Part shown: positions 36,299-53,531 of the stretch, piece after piece
Layout of the letters: each line of letters begins with the position of its first letter
Position numbering within the stretch: position 1 is the stretch's first letter
Assembly (NCBI GenBank): GCA_903789595.1
Contig: CAIFEZ010000006.1
Span: forward strand, 1-64,000
Reading direction: 5' to 3'
Length of the DNA: 64,000 nt
Source: an uncultured eubacterium 1-6
GTDB taxonomy: Bacteria; Bacillota; Clostridia; Lachnospirales; Lachnospiraceae
Notes under the pieces: model-generated
What the model was told of the DNA's origin: nothing
The model's input: only the letters and a program-made list of their open reading frames with translations
Database searches by the model: none
Translations under genes and position numbers: made by a program

Positions 36299-38509
36299 AT
36301 GATAAAAGTAGGCAAGTGGATCGCCAAACACAAGGTCTTTATTTTGCTGCTGGCGGTTATCCTGCTGTTTCCGGCAGCATATGGATATTTCCACACAAAG
36401 ACAAACTACGATCTGCTGACATACCTTCCGAAATCGCTGGATACGATGAAGGGGCAGGACATCATTGTCGATGAATACGGCATGGGTTCTTTCTCGATGA
36501 TCGTCGTGGACAACGAGAGTATGAAGGATGTCGCAAAGCTCGAGAAGGATATTGAGGCGGTTCCTCATGTAAAGGATGTGCTCTGGTATGACGACGTTGC
36601 GGATATTTCTCTTCCGGTGGATATGATTCCGCAGGATCTCAGAGAAAAGTTTTTCAAAGGCGACGCGACGATGATGCTGGCCATGTTCGATGACACATCG
36701 TCCGCGGATACCACCATGGAGGCGGTGGATCAGATCCGTTCCATCGTCAAGCAGGACACCTACGTCAGCGGCATTACCGCAGTCATGAACGATCTTCGTG
36801 ATCTGACGAATCAGGAGCTCCCGATCTACGTTACGATCGCCGTGGTTCTGTGTCTGGCGGCGATGCTCCTTCTGACCGATTCCTTCCTGGTTCCGTTCCT
36901 GTTCCTGGTGGACATCGGTTTTGCCATCATATACAACATGGGAACGAACATGATCTTCGGATCCATTTCCTATGTCACGAAGGCGGTCGCGGCGGTCCTG
37001 CAGCTGGGTGTCACGACTGACTACTCGATCTTCCTTCTGGGAAGCTACCGTGAGAATAAGGAAAGATTCCCCGGAGACAACAACCGGGCGATGGGACATG
37101 CCATTGCGAATACATTCAAATCCATCATCGGAAGTTCTGTGACGACAATCGCCGGATTTATCGCCCTGTGCTTCATGTCATTTACCCTTGGCCTTGATAT
37201 GGGACTGGTCATGGCAAAGGGCGTTGTCTTCGGAGTCATCACCTGCGTCACCGTGCTTCCGTCGCTGGTCCTTCTGTTCGACAAGCCGATTCAGAAGACG
37301 ACCCACAGACCGCTCCTCGGAAAACTGGAGAAGGCGTCCGACTTTATTACAAAGCATTATAAGGTCTGGCTGGTCATCTTCCTGGTGATGTTTATCCCGG
37401 CGGTATACGGCAACAACCACGTAAAGAACTACTATGATATGTCCGGATCTCTTCCGAAATCCCTTCCGTCCATGGTGGCGCAGGAGAAGGTGGAGGATGA
37501 TTTCGGCAGCAGCACGATGCACATCGTGGTCCTGGATAAGGACACGCCGGTCAAAAACAAGGTTGCGATCATAAACGAGATCAACGACGTGGACGGCGTG
37601 AACTACGTGCTCGGCCTGAATTCACTGGTCGGCTCCTCCGTTCCGGATTCCATGATTCCGTCGAATGTGAGACAGATGCTGCAGAGCGACAAGTATGAGC
37701 TGATGTTTGTAAGCACGGCCTACTACACAGGTTCAGATGAAGTAAATAAGCAGATCGACCAGATCAACAGCATTCTGAAGAAGTATGACAGCGGCGCGAT
37801 GCTGATCGGCGAGGCTCCGCTGACGCATGACCTGGTGGATGTCACGAATGTGGACTTCATGCATGTAAATTCCGCATCGCTGATCATTATCTTCTTCATC
37901 ATCCTGATGGTGTTCAAGTCGTTCTCGCTTCCGTTTATTCTGGAGGTCACGATTGAATTCGCCATCTTCGTCAACATGGCAATCATGTATTACACAGGAA
38001 CCTCGGTTTCCTTCGTGACGAGCATCGTACTCGGCACGGTTCAGCTGGGATCCACGGTCGATTACGCAATCCTGATGACGAGCCGGTATCAGAAGGAGCG
38101 TCAGAGAGGGCATGACAAGAAGGAATCCGTGCAGATCGCTCACAGAGCCTGCATGAGCTCCATCATCACCTCCGGCGTTGCGTTCTTCGCGGCGACCTTC
38201 GGAGTTGCGGTTTATTCGAACATCGATATTATCGAGTCCATCTGCATGATGCTCGCAAGAGGAGCTCTGATCAGTATGGTGACGGTTCTCTTCGTTCTGC
38301 CCGGTATGTTCATGATCTTCGACAAGCTGATTATCAAGACGTCGATCGACTTCCTCGGCAAGAAGAAGGAAGCCCGCAGGGCGGCATTCGCGCAGAAGAG
38401 AAATCCTCAGCTCCAGGCAGCCGCTCAGACGGCCGGCACTGCATCATCGGAAAGCAGTACCGGTTCGCAGGAATTTTCGGATGAAGATTCGGGTAAAGCT
38501 TCGAGTTGA
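36299..38509 (+). CDS. MMPL/RND-family membrane exporter
   Basis: 736 residues with about 12 membrane helices and two large external domains (about 30-180 and 385-530), the MMPL/hydrophobe exporter layout. Helix 1 starts at once; the second-half repeat begins near 350. The paired LGVTTDYSIFLL and LGSTVDYAILM motifs hold the intramembrane aspartates typical of proton-driven RND-like pumps. It probably exports lipids, siderophore-like molecules or antimicrobials. The carboxy tail is Ala/Gln/Ser-rich and cytosolic. TetR-controlled. The next gene starts 110 bases downstream and is probably its partner. Confidence 0.9.
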   Translation: MIKVGKWIAKHKVFILLLAVILLFPAAYGYFHTKTNYDLLTYLPKSLDTMKGQDIIVDEYGMGSFSMIVVDNESMKDVAKLEKDIEAVPHVKDVLWYDDVADISLPVDMIPQDLREKFFKGDATMMLAMFDDTSSADTTMEAVDQIRSIVKQDTYVSGITAVMNDLRDLTNQELPIYVTIAVVLCLAAMLLLTDSFLVPFLFLVDIGFAIIYNMGTNMIFGSISYVTKAVAAVLQLGVTTDYSIFLLGSYRENKERFPGDNNRAMGHAIANTFKSIIGSSVTTIAGFIALCFMSFTLGLDMGLVMAKGVVFGVITCVTVLPSLVLLFDKPIQKTTHRPLLGKLEKASDFITKHYKVWLVIFLVMFIPAVYGNNHVKNYYDMSGSLPKSLPSMVAQEKVEDDFGSSTMHIVVLDKDTPVKNKVAIINEINDVDGVNYVLGLNSLVGSSVPDSMIPSNVRQMLQSDKYELMFVSTAYYTGSDEVNKQIDQINSILKKYDSGAMLIGEAPLTHDLVDVTNVDFMHVNSASLIIIFFIILMVFKSFSLPFILEVTIEFAIFVNMAIMYYTGTSVSFVTSIVLGTVQLGSTVDYAILMTSRYQKERQRGHDKKESVQIAHRACMSSIITSGVAFFAATFGVAVYSNIDIIESICMMLARGALISMVTVLFVLPGMFMIFDKLIIKTSIDFLGKKKEARRAAFAQKRNPQLQAAAQTAGTASSESSTGSQEFSDEDSGKASS

Positions 38510-38618
38510 GAAAAGAGTCAGAAGGCACAGCGGTCATAATAACATCAAAGAACAGGAAAGAGATAAGGTTCAGCAGTTCGATGAGGATCTGCGTTCTACA
38601 GAAGAGAGGCTGAAAAAA

Positions 38619-41600
38619 ATGAACAGAAATGCCAAGATCGTAATCAAAAAGAATTTCAATAAGACAGTAGCCGTCGGTATCGCGGCGATGATGGGAATCG
38701 TACCGTCCGCGTCGGCTGTTTTTGCCGCGGACAGCACTTCTTCCAAGGTGACAAAGGATGAAACCGTATACGTCAATGCAGACGCGGACGGCAGCACTTC
38801 GAAGATCACGGTCTCCGATCAGCTGGTCGGCGCCGGCAGTGAGAAGAGCGTAAAGGACGCGTCCTCCCTGAGTGATATTCAGAACATTAAGGGCGATGAA
38901 ACCTACACCGGCTCCGGGGATTCCATGGTATGGGATTCCGACGGAAACGACATCTACTATCAGGGAACCTCCGACAAGGAGCTTCCGGTCGGCGTAAGCT
39001 TCACCTACTATCTGGACGGAAAGGAAATCGCGCCGAAGGACCTTGCGGGAAAGAGCGGAAAGCTTACCATCAAGATTCAGTACACGAACAACACCAGCGT
39101 GCAGACCAAGGTCGGTGATAAGACCGAGACCATGAAGACACCCTTCGTCATGATGACCGGACTGATTCTTCCGGGAGATAATTTCTCCAATGTAACGATC
39201 GACAACGGCAAGGTCATTAACGACGGAAGCAGAAACATCGTACTCGGATTCGGCGTGCCGGGTCTGAAGGAGGATCTGGATCTCGACAGCGTGAAGGATA
39301 AGCTGAAAGACGCTAAGGATGACGCCGACAAGCTCGATGAGGCGACGACTTCCAGCACATCGTCTTCAGATACGAAATCCTCAAGCGCAACCGCATTAAA
39401 ATCCGAGAGTGTGACCTCTGCGGATGAGAAGAGCAGCAAATCGGAGAGCAGTCAGGACAGCGTAGAGAATAAAATCGATGACTTCGACATCACCGACAGC
39501 GTGGAAATCACAGCGGATGTCAAGGACTTCACCATGGACTCCACCTACACGGTAGCTCTGACCGATGCCTTCCAGGATGTCGATTTCTCGGATCTCAAAT
39601 CCACAGATGATCTGAAGGACAAGATCAATGATCTCGAGGAGAATACGCTGAAGCTTGTCAGCGGATCCAGCGATCTCTACAACGGCGTGAAGGAGCTGAA
39701 CGACAAATACGGCACTCTCGACAGCGGCATTGATCAGCTGAAGAGCGGCGTGGACCAGCTCGCATCCGGAGTGACGGCATATACAGACGGCGTGTCCAAG
39801 GTAGACTCCGGAGCCAAGCAGCTGACAAGCGGCGCGGATAAACTGAGCAGCGGAGTAAGTTCTTATACCAACGGCGTTTCTCAGGTGAACTCCGGAGCAT
39901 CCCAGCTGGCAACAGGAGCGTCCTCTGCAAAGAGCGGCGCGGATCAGCTGGCAAGCGGCATCAATTCCTATACAGACGGCGTATCTACAGCCGAGAGTGG
40001 AGCCAAGACCCTTTCGAGCGGAGCAGGACAGGTATCCGATGGTGCAGCAAGCCTGGTTACAGGGTTAAATGCGCTGACTTCCACAAATCAGAAGCTGGTA
40101 GATGGCGCTTCCAGTGTGAGCAAGGGAGCAAGTGATCTTTCCAATGGCGCTTCCACTTTGTCAGAAAGTATCAAATCGTATACGGACGGGGTGTCACAGA
40201 TCGCAGCCGGGTTGAGTCAGCTGAATGATGGCATCAGCAACAATACTACGACACAGAAGTTGTCTGACTTGTCTGCCGGCATACAAGAGCTGTCCGCAGG
40301 TCTGGATACTCTAAATGATAACATGACTGCTTTGCAGACAGGTGTGAACAATCTGATCAGCCAGACAACCACATCTGTAAGCAGTTCTGTAGAAAGTCTT
40401 CAGACACTGAGCAGTCAGCTTGGAACCATTTATTCCTCATTAAACAGTTTGCAGGCACCGGCGCTCGATGTGTCCACAGTGACCAATGGTTTAAGTACCG
40501 CAAAGGTAGCGATTGATGCACAGATAACGGCTTTACAGGACCGGGTCAGGAATGCAGCAACTGAGGATGAAAAGAATTCGATCAGTGCATCGATAACAGC
40601 TCTTCAAAATGCGGAATCGAGCCTAAGTATTAGTGGCATTGATAATTATAATAAACAAGTCAGTGCATATAAGCAGACCCTGGAGGGACTTGCAGAAGGT
40701 GTAAACCAGCTGAAAGCTGCAGTGGATGCTCAGATTAAGAATTTATCGAGCACTTCCACAGGTGCGTCTGTTCTGCAGCAGGGAATGGATCAGGCAGCTA
40801 AGGGAGCCAAGGATGCAGCAGATGGTGCGGATGCGTTGAATGCGGGAGTGAACGGTGCGGATGGTCTGATGTCTGTTATGAACACACTGAAGAGCAGCGT
40901 GGGGAAGTTGAAGGCAGGGGCTGACCAGGTGGCATCGAATAATGAGGCATTGACGAACGGTGCTTCTCAGCTCAGCGCAGGAGCATCCACCTTGTCTTCG
41001 GGCGCATCAGATCTTGCCAGTGGTGTTTCTGCTTACACGAATGGCGCTTCCCAGGCTGCTTCCGGAGCTGCAAAGCTTTCAGATGGAGCTTCCCAGGTCA
41101 GCAGTGGTGCTTCGAGTCTGGTAAGCGGTCTTGGAAAGCTGACAAGCAATAACGGTGCACTGAAGAGCGGTGCTTCTCAGCTTTCCAGCGGAGCTGCACA
41201 GCTTTCTTCAGGAGCGTCCTCTCTGTACGCCGGAACATCCAAGCTGAATTCCAACAGCGCGGCACTGAACAGCGGCGCTTCTCAGCTGGCATCCGGATCC
41301 AGGACGCTGGCGAGCGGAACTTCTCAGCTGAACAGCAAGAGCGGCGATCTGAAGAGCGGCACGAGTCAGCTGAAGAGCGGCACAGATCAGCTGGCTTCCG
41401 GCAGCGGTCAGGTTGTGAGCGGCCTGAAGCAGCTGACCGACGGCGCGAAGGAGCTGAAGGACGGAACAAAGAAGTACAACGATGAGGGAATCAAGAAGAT
41501 CAGCGACGGCATCGGCGGCGCTCTGGATGATCTGAGTGACGTGCAGGATCGTCTGAAAGCGGTTTCCTCCGGTGACCTCCAGTACACGAACTACAGCGGA

Positions 41601-41669
41601 ATCGCTAATGGTATGGACGGAACGGTGAAATTCGTCATCACCACCAATGAGATCAAGGCGGATAAATAA
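38619..41669 (+). CDS. Large secreted heptad-repeat protein, MMPL partner
   Basis: 1016 residues. A signal peptide (about 1-38, ending SAVFAA) is followed by a folded head (about 40-300), Ser/Asp-rich linker, and a long region (about 350-1000) of x-x-x-Leu-x-x-Gly-like heptads such as SGASQLASGASSLYAG, the kind seen in YhgE/Pip family stalks. A final KFVITTNEIKADK ends the chain, and there is no membrane anchor. ATG 38619 is preferred over an upstream frame that overlaps the MMPL gene. It probably forms a long coiled-coil structure outside the membrane working with the exporter (inference). Confidence 0.85.
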   Translation: MNRNAKIVIKKNFNKTVAVGIAAMMGIVPSASAVFAADSTSSKVTKDETVYVNADADGSTSKITVSDQLVGAGSEKSVKDASSLSDIQNIKGDETYTGSGDSMVWDSDGNDIYYQGTSDKELPVGVSFTYYLDGKEIAPKDLAGKSGKLTIKIQYTNNTSVQTKVGDKTETMKTPFVMMTGLILPGDNFSNVTIDNGKVINDGSRNIVLGFGVPGLKEDLDLDSVKDKLKDAKDDADKLDEATTSSTSSSDTKSSSATALKSESVTSADEKSSKSESSQDSVENKIDDFDITDSVEITADVKDFTMDSTYTVALTDAFQDVDFSDLKSTDDLKDKINDLEENTLKLVSGSSDLYNGVKELNDKYGTLDSGIDQLKSGVDQLASGVTAYTDGVSKVDSGAKQLTSGADKLSSGVSSYTNGVSQVNSGASQLATGASSAKSGADQLASGINSYTDGVSTAESGAKTLSSGAGQVSDGAASLVTGLNALTSTNQKLVDGASSVSKGASDLSNGASTLSESIKSYTDGVSQIAAGLSQLNDGISNNTTTQKLSDLSAGIQELSAGLDTLNDNMTALQTGVNNLISQTTTSVSSSVESLQTLSSQLGTIYSSLNSLQAPALDVSTVTNGLSTAKVAIDAQITALQDRVRNAATEDEKNSISASITALQNAESSLSISGIDNYNKQVSAYKQTLEGLAEGVNQLKAAVDAQIKNLSSTSTGASVLQQGMDQAAKGAKDAADGADALNAGVNGADGLMSVMNTLKSSVGKLKAGADQVASNNEALTNGASQLSAGASTLSSGASDLASGVSAYTNGASQAASGAAKLSDGASQVSSGASSLVSGLGKLTSNNGALKSGASQLSSGAAQLSSGASSLYAGTSKLNSNSAALNSGASQLASGSRTLASGTSQLNSKSGDLKSGTSQLKSGTDQLASGSGQVVSGLKQLTDGAKELKDGTKKYNDEGIKKISDGIGGALDDLSDVQDRLKAVSSGDLQYTNYSGIANGMDGTVKFVITTNEIKADK

Positions 41670-49328: not shown

Positions 49329-49366
49329 CGGAACGTTACTGTCCGCGATATATGTGGGGAGAGAAT

Positions 49367-51823
49367 ATGACATATTTCACCTGCTTTTTTCTGGATAATG
49401 AGAAGGATATCATCGTAAATCTCTACCGCGACCTGGGAAGGCTCTGCTACGAGCTGGAGACGCCGAACCATCATTCCGGAAATCTGATCCGGAATCTGGC
49501 GAAGCTCTGTGAGCTCCCGCTCTGCGAGAACGAGAAGGGGCTTCTGGTCATCCGGGGCGAGGTTCCGTGCTACATAGACGCCGCGAATGAGGAGGTCTAT
49601 ATCTTCCGCCTCGGGAACACAAAGGTCGCGAACATCTATCCGGACGGAAGGGTCGAGATGAAGGCTTCGATTCCTTCTATCGCCAAGACGCTGATGAGCC
49701 AGACCCGGGATTACCGCTTCGACATTTCAAAAACCATCTTCAAGACCTACATCCGCAGGGAATACAAATTCCGTGCGGATCTTCACACGCATATGAACGG
49801 CAATCTGTCGCCGGACATTCTGATCGCACTTGGAATCTATCATCAGATCCAGTATCCGCTGTATTACATCCGGAAACTGAACCTTGCGCTGACGCAGGAA
49901 CAGGAGGAGAGACTTGCCGCCCAGAGGGCGAAGGTCGCGAGGCAGTTCTCCAGCTCTGACCTGAAGGGCAAGTACCTGGACCGGAAGATCAACGACAACA
50001 CAGTGATCAATTTTGCGGATCTGATTCTGAACAACCTGGATCACGCGGAGCAGAACATCGTGAAGATCAGGACGTCACTCGCGATTCTGAAGGACGGACA
50101 GGCGGTCTTCACCAACCTGGAGAAGGTATATCTGTACCGTTATATTTTCACCAAGGGAAAGGAGAGCGAGGAGAAGCTTGACCTCTCCGGCGTTCATCAG
50201 ATTCCGGACAGGGATGTGAGGGATGCGTTGATTCAGATGAGGAAGGACGGAGAAAATCCGGACTATCACCGGAATACGGTTTTCCAGGATGACCTTCTGT
50301 GGATCGCGAGAAGCTACCGGAGACAGGGAATCTGCTATGCGGAGATCAGCGACACGACGCTGGTCAAAAAATACGAATCCCTGCAGATGCTGCAGGAGGT
50401 TCACGAGATCATGCCAAAGATCTATCGGGAGACCGGCGTCATGATCCGCTTCCTTGCCGCCATCCGAAGAATTCCCCTGACCATTGTCAAGGATCAGGTG
50501 ACGCCGGAGGATTATCTCATCCGGAATCTGAATGTGCTGCAGGCGGTAGCGCTGGATCCCTACGTGGCCGGGTGTGATTTTGTCGGAGAGGAGATCAACG
50601 ACATCATCACGCTGAAGCCGATGTTCCGTGAAATCGTCAAAATCACGAAGAAGGTTCCGGATTTTGTGATCCGGGTCCATGCGGGAGAGAACGACAGCCA
50701 GAAGGACAACATCGCGCACAGCATCGAGTGCGTGAAGGATTCTCTGGCGCCCGGGCAGAAGATGCCGAGGGTTCGTCTGGGCCACGGGCTCTATACCTAC
50801 AGCCTTAAGACCAAAAAGGGCAAAGAGGTCCTGAAGGCGCTGATCGAGAACAACATCGTCCTTGAATTCCAGCTCACCTCCAACGTGAGGCTGAACAATC
50901 TGAATGCTCTGGAGAACCATCCGCTCCGTCAGTATCTGGCGGCCGGCATCCGGTGCGTGCAGGGCACGGACGGCGCCGCTCTTTACGGGACAAATTCAAT
51001 CGACGAGCAGCTTTCTCTGGAAAAGCTGCTGGAGCTGACGCCGGACGAAATGATGAGCATGAAGCAGACGGAGACCGAGATCATCCGGGAGGGGCAGGAA
51101 TCCTACTCCAGAAAGAAAATCGAGCTGCATCAGATGCTGGCGGGAAGAGACTTTGAGGATGTTCTTCTGGGAAAAATGGAAGAAGCGGAGGCGAGGAGCG
51201 GAGGACTTCGGCTCCGCCGAAACCACAGGGTGGACGCAAACACCGAACTGAAGGACAGCATCCGAGAGCTTCCCTGGGACAGACTTCCGGTCATTCTGAT
51301 GGGAGGAAGCTTCAATTCCGAGAAACGGGCGACGAGGATTACGGAGGAGGGAGGCAGGCAGCTGGACGCGCTGCTCGAAAGCCTGAATCCGGAGGAGGTA
51401 TTTTTTGTCATCGGGAACCGTCTCCGGGGGTATGAGAAATATCTTCTGGAGCACAACGAAAAGGGCTTCCTGATCTATGCCTTCGTTCCGTCGCTGGTAA
51501 CCCGCGAGGAGTGCCGGCAGCTGGAGGAGGCGGGCGTCCGTATCCGCGTATCGACGGAAAGCGAGGGCATGGGCATCTACAAGAGCTTCAATTATGAGAT
51601 CTTTGAGAGACGGCCGTCGCTGCTGATCGGCTTCGACGGGAACTCCGCCGGCGAGAACATGATTCAGGAGGCAAAGAACGGAAAGGGAAAAGCCGGAATC
51701 TTTATCTGGGAGAAGTCCAGGACCCTGCGGGAGAAGGCCTCCTCTCTGGAGGGCTATGTCCGGTTTTTCAACAGCAAAAAACCGCTCGCGGATCAGGTGA
51801 GCGGTTATCTGAGTCAGAATTGA
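49367..51823 (+). CDS. Adenosine-deaminase-superfamily protein fused to a Rossmann-like domain
   Basis: 818 residues. Residues about 130-560 form a metal-dependent deaminase/amidohydrolase barrel: HxH (H140, H142), HAGE (438-441), GHG (472-474), LTSN (503-506) and GTDG (533-536), in adenosine-deaminase order. The usual second Asp after TD is Gly. An unusually long insert lies between HxH and HAGE. Residues about 638-818 form a separate alpha/beta domain starting PVILMGGSFN and containing FDGNSAGENM, reminiscent of nucleotide-sensing SLOG-type Rossmann folds. An additional amino domain covers about 1-130. The role is not established. GGGGAGAG favours ATG 49367 over 49352. Confidence 0.75.
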   Translation: MTYFTCFFLDNEKDIIVNLYRDLGRLCYELETPNHHSGNLIRNLAKLCELPLCENEKGLLVIRGEVPCYIDAANEEVYIFRLGNTKVANIYPDGRVEMKASIPSIAKTLMSQTRDYRFDISKTIFKTYIRREYKFRADLHTHMNGNLSPDILIALGIYHQIQYPLYYIRKLNLALTQEQEERLAAQRAKVARQFSSSDLKGKYLDRKINDNTVINFADLILNNLDHAEQNIVKIRTSLAILKDGQAVFTNLEKVYLYRYIFTKGKESEEKLDLSGVHQIPDRDVRDALIQMRKDGENPDYHRNTVFQDDLLWIARSYRRQGICYAEISDTTLVKKYESLQMLQEVHEIMPKIYRETGVMIRFLAAIRRIPLTIVKDQVTPEDYLIRNLNVLQAVALDPYVAGCDFVGEEINDIITLKPMFREIVKITKKVPDFVIRVHAGENDSQKDNIAHSIECVKDSLAPGQKMPRVRLGHGLYTYSLKTKKGKEVLKALIENNIVLEFQLTSNVRLNNLNALENHPLRQYLAAGIRCVQGTDGAALYGTNSIDEQLSLEKLLELTPDEMMSMKQTETEIIREGQESYSRKKIELHQMLAGRDFEDVLLGKMEEAEARSGGLRLRRNHRVDANTELKDSIRELPWDRLPVILMGGSFNSEKRATRITEEGGRQLDALLESLNPEEVFFVIGNRLRGYEKYLLEHNEKGFLIYAFVPSLVTREECRQLEEAGVRIRVSTESEGMGIYKSFNYEIFERRPSLLIGFDGNSAGENMIQEAKNGKGKAGIFIWEKSRTLREKASSLEGYVRFFNSKKPLADQVSGYLSQN

Positions 51824-51840: not shown

Positions 51841-52218
51841 TTACTTCTTCTTCCATATCCCGATTGTCGCGAGAAGCTTCTCCTTCTCATCGTCTGACAT
51901 GGAGTGAATCTCTTCGGACAGCTTATTGTCAAGGGAGGTTCCGCGGTATTCGGGAATGGTCCTGCCGAGAATTTCGTCTACTGTGATATCGCAGATGTTC
52001 GCGAAATAACACAGAACCTTGATCGACATGGCCGTCCTGCTGTTCTCCACATTGCTGATGTAGCCGGGGGTTACATGAAGTTCTGTGGCTACTTCATTCT
52101 GTGTCAGCCCCTTTTCAATCCGAAGCTTCTTGATCGCTTCACCCAGACCCTCAAAATTAAAATCGTAATTCTTCACCTTGCTGTCTGTCGTCTGTCTGTC
52201 TGTCTTTACATTTTTCAT
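51841..52218 (-). CDS. XRE-family transcriptional regulator
   Basis: 125 residues: a Thr/Lys/Asp-rich start, then a lambda-repressor-type helix-turn-helix (about 32-83, with LRIEKGLTQNEVATELHVTPGYISNVENSRTAM), and a carboxy tail ending in KEKLLATIGIWKKK. It probably controls a nearby or distant operon. AGAAGGAG precedes ATG 52218. A GTCT tetranucleotide tract lies within codons about 4-12, which could vary in length. Confidence 0.85.
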   Translation of the reverse strand: MKNVKTDRQTTDSKVKNYDFNFEGLGEAIKKLRIEKGLTQNEVATELHVTPGYISNVENSRTAMSIKVLCYFANICDITVDEILGRTIPEYRGTSLDNKLSEEIHSMSDDEKEKLLATIGIWKKK

Positions 52219-52312
52219 CTGAGGAACGCTCCTTCTCTTAATTAATGAGATAGTGGTCATTTCGAACATATTATATTGTATATTAATTATAGTTAGTATA
52301 CAAATGAACTTT

Positions 52313-52342
52313 TTGTGATCATTTTGTGTCCTGGGATATAAT
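52313..52342 (+). promoter_or_regulatory. Promoter of the FMN riboswitch/ribU transcript
   Basis: TTGTGA (52313-52318), 18 bases, TATAAT (52337-52342). Confidence 0.6.
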
Positions 52343-52430
52343 AGGGATGTAATAGCCTGATTTTTGTAAGATTTCCTATTGCTTTTCCCTGTATTTTGCG
52401 TTAACATTAGGCCGTAAATACAAACAGGAG

Positions 52431-53390: not shown

Positions 53391-53451
<61 letters not shown>

Positions 53452-53498
53452 CCCCCCGCCCACACCACCCCCGGGGGGGCCGCCCGGGGGCCCCCCCC

Positions 53499-53531
53499 AC
53501 CTGCCGATACGGCAGGTGCGGCGGCCCTTTT
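53499..53531 (+). terminator. Terminator remnant after ribU
   Basis: CACCTGCC/GGCAGGTG form a stem, followed by GCGGCGGCCCTTTT. The right arm extends further than the left, which has been replaced by the G/C-run sequence. Confidence 0.6.

Follow-up and report, generated by a model that had tools for sequence, protein, structure and literature searches.

A large multidomain deaminase of the Lachnospirales with a probable housekeeping role

Introduction

The antiviral proteins RdrB and Cad1 have the same fold as metabolic enzymes of the adenosine deaminase (ADA) type. When a large protein with this fold is encoded in a bacterial genome, does it belong to defence or to metabolism? The question is raised by a gene at positions 49367 to 51823 of a 64,000-nucleotide stretch of DNA from an uncultured eubacterium of the Lachnospiraceae (positions 1 to 64,000 of contig CAIFEZ010000006.1, assembly GCA_903789595.1), which we call the window. 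An earlier note, made from the sequence alone, had taken the product of 818 amino acids (aa) for a deaminase-superfamily barrel joined to a domain resembling nucleotide sensors, with a role in either nucleotide metabolism or defence. A literature search on this protein returned nothing, which is no claim about the wider literature.

Here we describe a large and so far uncharacterised enzyme from bacteria of the rumen and gut, which is restricted to one clade and carries two orphan domains. Judged by the residues it keeps, the protein is probably an active deaminase, and its role is very probably housekeeping rather than defence. Taken as a whole, the proposal that we tentatively favour is a stand-alone, vertically inherited, metal-dependent deaminase of the Lachnospirales that would act in purine-nucleotide housekeeping.

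A conserved catalytic centre with an altered substrate pocket

The active-site motifs, numbered as in the 818-aa protein, are the following.

49784..49798, + strand: HTHMN, residues 140-144, with the metal ligands H140 and H142; N144 replaces Asp19 of ADA
50570..50593, + strand: GCDFVGEE, residues 402-409, with an invariant G407
50678..50689, + strand: HAGE, residues 438-441, with the metal ligand H438 and the catalytic E441
50774..50788, + strand: RLGHG, residues 470-474, with the catalytic H473
50966..50974, + strand: TDG, residues 534-536, with the metal ligand D535; G536 replaces Asp296 of ADA, by alignment to NSDDP/NTDDP

By its motif, G407 is presumably the equivalent of Gly184 of ADA, and we take the roles of H438 and E441 to be those assigned in ADA. 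Conservation was followed in an alignment of 74 sequences (A2), which holds the window protein and the relatives from 73 of 80 loci. Left out were three relatives at contig ends (L059, L077, and L081), three whose reading frames are split, either as pseudogenes or perhaps by sequencing errors (L065, L071, and L080), and L004, which is in alignment A1. The earlier note had read the metal and acid/base motifs as kept, and they are: H142, H438, E441, H473, D535, and G536 are invariant in all 74 sequences, and H140 is His in 73. An extract of the RdrB study PMC9994260 gives the same roles to the HAGE-type motif of that protein. Because the zinc ligands and the acid/base residues are kept, the deaminase is probably active.

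Two positions of the substrate pocket depart from ADA. The replacement of the second Asp of the TDD motif by Gly, which had been pointed out before, stands in 74 of the 74 sequences, but the loss of that Asp is not as rare as it might seem. Short ADAs of the same bacterial family were compared from 21 of the 22 loci L090-L111, all picked for matching the deaminase query: 16 have Asn at this position, 5 have Asp, and none has Gly. These 16 short ADAs have Asn there despite the severe impairment that the same Asp296-to-Asn change causes in mouse ADA, according to an extract of PMC12669630. More telling is the Asp19-to-Asn change, which was absent from the earlier note: the residue is Asn144 in 73 of the 74 sequences and Ser in one, and among the 19 short ADAs that cover the position it is Asp in 18 and Glu in one.

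Asp19 of mouse ADA forms bonds with both the 5'- and the 3'-hydroxyl of adenosine, according to the same extract of PMC12669630, which cites Sideraki 1996. In TaqCad1, which deaminates ATP and is reported without adenosine deamination, Asp19 has become Gly and Asp296 has become Asn, and both residues contact ATP (extract of PMC12669630). In human ADAL, the zinc ligands are His24, His26, His208, and Asp293, and Asn28, His74, Ser106, and Thr107 check and hold the 5'-monophosphate (extract of PMC11349198). Alignments place Glu at the first position in the adenine deaminase 3rys. In other words, the first pocket position varies with the substrate, being Asp or Glu in the short ADAs, Glu in 3rys, Asn in ADAL, and Gly in TaqCad1. 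Because Asn144 reproduces the arrangement of ADAL, in which Asn28 lies at the 5'-monophosphate, a nucleotide substrate would be favoured, and by this analogy we consider the chances evenly balanced that the substrate is phosphorylated.

A genuine gene that follows genera

The coding sequence and the element before its start are placed as follows.

49367..51823, + strand: gene for the 818-aa multidomain deaminase, from ATG 49367 to the stop TGA at 51821-51823
49356..49361, + strand: GGGGAG, a putative Shine-Dalgarno-like sequence, 6-11 bases upstream of ATG 49367

This is the open reading frame (ORF) that had been proposed, in place and in length. A second in-frame ATG lies upstream, at 49352, but all 74 aligned sequences have the Met at 49367. 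By a simple count, the ratio of nonsynonymous to synonymous change (dN/dS) is 0.019-0.023 against two relatives with about 97% protein identity and 89% DNA identity. So low a ratio (about 0.02) marks the frame 49367-51823 as a real gene on which strong purifying selection acts.

Of 95 relatives confirmed in a genome scan, the best 80 are 64-97% identical to the window protein and come from the Lachnospiraceae or from records titled Eubacterium or Clostridiales. The large protein occurs in 13 of 16 genomes of the window's genus by whole-genome search, and in a second genus of the family 57 of 79 genomes have it. In the family sample, 8 of 200 genomes gave strong matches, the window's own included, and the other 31 matches were ordinary ADAs. 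The order sample contained it in 27 of 295 genomes, from two families only (two further matches were ordinary ADAs), and the phylum sample in 2 of 398 (one further match, again an ordinary ADA). It should be mentioned that the counts in the order and genus samples were read by hand and include some partial frames.

A quick tree of the 74 proteins, in which 23 rows lack a genus name and 23 of the 71 inner branches are open, needs 4 label changes for five genus groups, which is the fewest possible, against a mean of 19.9 after shuffling. Such a distribution agrees with vertical descent accompanied by losses. On viral contigs, where 46 pattern matches were examined and the C-terminal domain alone gave one pattern match, no relative could be confirmed; seven plasmid records and two phage records gave only partial matches of the ordinary-ADA kind, none covering 80% of the query.

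Domain architecture and the C-terminal domain

An AlphaFold model built from the 74-sequence alignment (mean pLDDT 85.7, pTM 0.75) divides the protein into the following parts.

49367..49741, + strand: N-terminal beta-rich domain, residues 1-125, boundary approximate (AlphaFold model)
49742..51112, + strand: ADA-type (beta/alpha)8 barrel with an insert, residues 126-582 (Pfam and structure matches)
49829..50266, + strand: helical insert within the barrel, residues about 155-300, approximate (model and structure comparison)
51269..51787, + strand: C-terminal Rossmann-like domain, residues 635-807 (model), with invariant GGSF (646-649) and DGN (757-759) in alignment A3

The assignment of the barrel to the deaminase superfamily is confirmed by its score of 57.9 bits with Pfam A_deaminase (PF00962), for which the cut-off is 27, and by its structural matches: ADA entries gave Z 23.6-26.7, ADAL up to 25.6 (8qch_A), and Cad1 up to 23.3 (9c77_D). 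Against the ADA 2qvn (Z 26.7, rmsd 3.5), 322 residues are aligned inside a model range of 465, in agreement with the large insert that had been noticed. The N-terminal domain has no Pfam match and no significant sequence match in the PDB. Two long helices (559-610) link the barrel to the C-terminal region (635-818), where strands and helices alternate, with seven main strands within residues 640-801; the Rossmann-like fold ascribed to this end of the protein is thus upheld in a confident model. A search of viral structures gave nothing usable, the best match having E 5.6e-4 at TM 0.16/0.24.

What is this C-terminal domain? By eye, two of its motifs, the glycine-rich GGSF that follows strand one and the DGN...N..QEA that follows strand five, resemble the loops of the SLOG superfamily, whose general role is that of a nucleotide sensor or enzyme (extract of PMC6459960), and a kinship with SLOG is plausible. 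Comparison of the C-terminal alignment with DprA, LOG, and YpsA by hhalign gave probabilities below 1% each, but known pairs reached only 3% (DprA-LOG), 9% (DprA-YpsA), and 0.3% (LOG-YpsA). Since even known SLOG pairs lie at 0.3-9%, the profile comparison is without power; the best of 71 control families (ctl7) reached 15%, which is noise. No significant match to the C-terminal domain was obtained in Pfam with alignment A3 (best Tox-REase-5 at 0.021, Toprim_2 at 0.022, and SIS at 0.03), in PADLOC (PDC-S21 at 0.0084 in one of 31), or among PDB sequences (best 0.38). A search of 98 genomes with a profile of the domain gave no convincing copy in any other architecture; 17 strong matches were frames of this protein or split copies and six further matches lay at E 0.05-0.3.

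Gene neighbourhood

In the window, the gene has an LCP-family protein on one side and, on the other, a convergent Cro-like regulator with a helix-turn-helix (HTH) domain.

51841-52407, - strand: Cro/CapH-like HTH regulator, convergent to the deaminase gene

Among the 80 loci, this regulator has a relative in L002, L003, and L065 only. Ten further neighbours lie in the window, of which three remained without a name and seven were named by NCBIfam similarity: a GTP diphosphokinase-like protein, NAD synthase, Rid, TrkA, TrkH, HisC, and a DASS transporter. Across loci, even the most frequent family of upstream neighbours is present in only 7 of 80 and the most frequent downstream one in 4 of 77, and gene order is kept among close relatives only. 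The neighbours there include an rRNA methylase, a NUDIX hydrolase, a Cys-tRNA deacylase, a PfkB kinase, a dUTPase-like protein, and Sir2 proteins; some are nucleotide-related and none is constant. The deaminase is a stand-alone gene, as had been supposed.

A PADLOC scan of 12 neighbouring proteins recognised no defence system, and it agreed with the earlier note in finding no RdrA-like partner among them. Four of the proteins matched single profiles: a RelA/SpoT-like protein (PDC-S33, 1.6e-23), the Rid protein (PD-T4-2_B, 1.3e-34), a protein with what we take, by eye, to be a NUDIX box (PDC-S07, 5.8e-6), and the Cro-like HTH protein (HTH_VI at 8.4e-12 and capH at 4.4e-10). We take these matches to reflect domains that are generic or shared with housekeeping proteins. 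The same 12 proteins, in a genome not searched beyond them, gave no cas match and no CRISPR genes.

Proposed function and its alternatives

A barrel that keeps the metal site together with the catalytic Glu and His is expected to hydrolyse a 6-amino or N6-substituted purine, and this is the reaction that the ADA-type barrel would catalyse here. The most likely substrate would be a nucleoside 5'-phosphate, such as AMP, dAMP, an N6-modified AMP, or a larger adenine nucleotide, in preference to adenosine. The two outer domains, Rossmann-like at the C-terminus and beta-rich at the N-terminus, might perhaps bind a regulatory ligand or shape an oligomer. We can also imagine a more elaborate scheme, although it seems rather unlikely: a single chain that processes a nucleotide in two steps, or else a nucleotide deaminase gated by a ligand, would have become fixed in rumen Lachnospirales. 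Its barrel would deaminate a phosphorylated adenine nucleotide (perhaps N6-modified or derived from NAD) and its C-terminal Rossmann-like domain, of a kind not described before, would sense a nucleotide signal or cleave the product.

Several observations weigh against a housekeeping nucleotide deaminase as we propose it. One sequence, L078, has Leu in place of the metal ligand H140. Because Asn occurs at the Asp296 position in most of the short ADAs, a change there is weak evidence. The link between Asn144 and a phosphate comes from one analogous position in a distant enzyme, and RdrB, itself an ATP deaminase, varies at that position, with Thr, Tyr, Lys, Lys, and Asn in five proteins and a shorter loop in three of the eight compared. 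That the C-terminal domain binds a ligand is pure conjecture, and somewhat less likely than not. Finally, the gene is absent from some nearly complete genomes of the clade, such as G1093 (99% complete, with no PF00962 match), and is thus not essential.

Among the alternatives, the one with the largest share, although still unlikely, is that of an ordinary adenosine (or adenine) deaminase that has gained extra domains and replaces the short ADA in this clade. ADAs are its best sequence matches, and in the order sample a full-length short ADA (E < 1e-60) occurs in none of 24 genomes with the large protein and in 46 of 222 without it (Fisher p 0.010). In the most densely sampled genus, however, both proteins occur together in 5 of 57 genomes and the short ADA in 5 of 22 that lack the large protein (p 0.13). 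The family sample, too, contains at least two genomes with both (G918 and G1033). These statistics ignore the kinship of the genomes. The association is suggestive in the order sample and not in the genus sample, and as a proof of replacement it was rejected. Because the two proteins coexist in some genomes, they are not strict substitutes, which fits different substrates. Moreover, the best score with the NCBIfam ADA equivalog TIGR01430 is 50.8 bits where the cut-off is 216.55, the protein falls short of the cut-off in each of the 10 NCBIfam deaminase models that it matched, and both Asp19 and Asp296 are replaced.

An antiviral nucleotide deaminase like RdrB or Cad1, which would convert ATP to ITP and be switched on through its N- or C-terminal domain at infection, we judge improbable. 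Its large size, N-terminal extension, and barrel insert would suit such a role; the same two pocket positions are changed as in Cad1, and the PADLOC CARF_ADA profile matches at 2.7e-8, in the barrel only. Nevertheless, the gene is near-core and follows genera, no mobile-element copies were found among the viral contigs and the plasmid and phage records, no conserved operon was found around it, and the layout is neither that of RdrB nor that of Cad1. The genus-following distribution, the lack of fixed neighbours, and the ordinary-ADA nature of the phage and plasmid matches speak against defence, and of the two roles offered by the earlier note nucleotide metabolism is the likelier. There is likewise little probability that the protein is a sensor or regulator of deaminase origin without catalytic activity: the second Asp is lost in all sequences, L078 lacks H140, and there are two extra domains, but none of the other metal or catalytic residues varies among the 74 sequences, which would be unexpected for a dead enzyme. 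We give an equally small chance to a bifunctional enzyme in which the barrel would deaminate a nucleotide and a LOG-like Rossmann domain would cleave the base from the sugar phosphate. The Rossmann-like alternation with invariant GGSF and DGN, similar by eye to the glycine loops of SLOG proteins, would fit it. In a search of 26 genomes, 9 had LOG-family proteins, and the genome of the window gave none. However, PGGxGTxxE, which we take to be the LOG signature and which is seen in the LOG proteins compared, is absent from it, as is any significant Pfam match, and the comparison with LOG, DprA, and YpsA, powerless as it was, gave no statistical link.

Other features of the window

Two further observations concern other parts of the window. 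Between two genes, positions 53399-53447 are a run of 49 G, followed by mixed C and G homopolymers to 53500; the whole of 53399-53500 looks more like a sequencing or assembly artefact than a genuine tract. In the list of ORFs, 38481-41669 (+ strand) encodes a protein of 1062 aa with abundant serine, glycine, and leucine repeats, which in our view presumably resembles a YhgE/Pip-type repeat protein.

Comparison with known systems

ADA (PF00962; 6n9m, 2pgf, and 2qvn) shares with the 818-aa protein the barrel fold and the metal and acid/base residues, whereas the latter adds N- and C-terminal domains, about 140 insert residues that remain unaligned, and the Asp19-to-Asn and Asp296-to-Gly changes. 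ADAL/MAPDA, the N6-methyl-AMP deaminase (8qch and 6iv5), is alike in its barrel and in its HxHxN arrangement, here HTHMN with the N present in 73 of 74 sequences; of the phosphate contacts of ADAL, the one compared is Asn28. The ADAL chain, of about 355 aa, is without the extra domains. With the SLOG superfamily (SMF/DprA/LOG and YpsA) the C-terminal domain has in common a predicted Rossmann-like alternation and glycine-rich loops, but no detectable sequence match, and no profile match in the comparison that lacked power.

The likeness to RdrB lies in the N-terminal extension, the split barrel, and a length of about 800-900 aa. According to an extract of PMC9994260, RdrB is extended at its N-terminus, has its core divided by an insertion, and carries a third insertion beyond the final catalytic His. 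This last insertion is absent here, where H473 and D535 are 62 residues apart, in contrast to 201-248 in the RdrBs (seven of eight RdrB-like proteins, in which the search pattern found both sites); the RdrBs of the order thus have about 140-190 extra residues without a counterpart in the 818-aa protein. The eight RdrB-like proteins of the order keep both Asps (TDD), where our protein has TDG, and they lack its Rossmann-like C-terminal domain. The PADLOC RdrB profile did not match the 818-aa protein at E up to 1, and it matched all seven large ADAs of the order that were tested (best E 5.5e-26 to 2.1e-37; L158 was left out). The profile, the missing insertion after His, the TDG motif, and the lack of RdrA among the 12 neighbours rule out an identity with RdrB. 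A suspected N-terminal motif common to both was also dropped, as the profile comparison aligned 111 barrel columns only (probability 37%). RdrB chains are absent from the 50 structure matches listed, which proves nothing. As an observation apart, the RdrB-like proteins of the Lachnospirales (L152-L159) are diverse, with 869-1038 aa, and six of the eight loci have a further neighbouring ORF of at least 768 aa. Two of these large ORFs were tested and matched no PADLOC 2023 model; they are possibly divergent RdrA proteins.

Cad1, or CAAD (CARF-adenosine deaminase), is alike in its ADA domain (9c77_D, Z 23.3) and in the two changed pocket positions, but its Rossmann-like domain is N-terminal and that of our protein C-terminal. 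The CARF_ADA profile matches residues 312-559 (823-aa numbering) over profile positions 333-559 of 605 only, and no CARF domain was found in the 818-aa protein, whose residues 1-130 are beta-rich in the model. With no CARF domain and the barrel as the only part to match, an identity with Cad1 is ruled out. The protein may work like RdrB or Cad1 in its substrate class, yet it belongs to neither family. Genes of this kind could be misread as defence genes from the PADLOC CARF_ADA profile or from size alone. Common rumen bacteria thus offer a deaminase that is conserved and apparently not mobile, with an altered pocket and additional domains, from which the task of a regulated nucleotide deaminase outside defence could be learned. 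A two-step or ligand-gated enzyme of the kind imagined above would, if real, stand to housekeeping as the antiviral ATP deaminases stand to defence.

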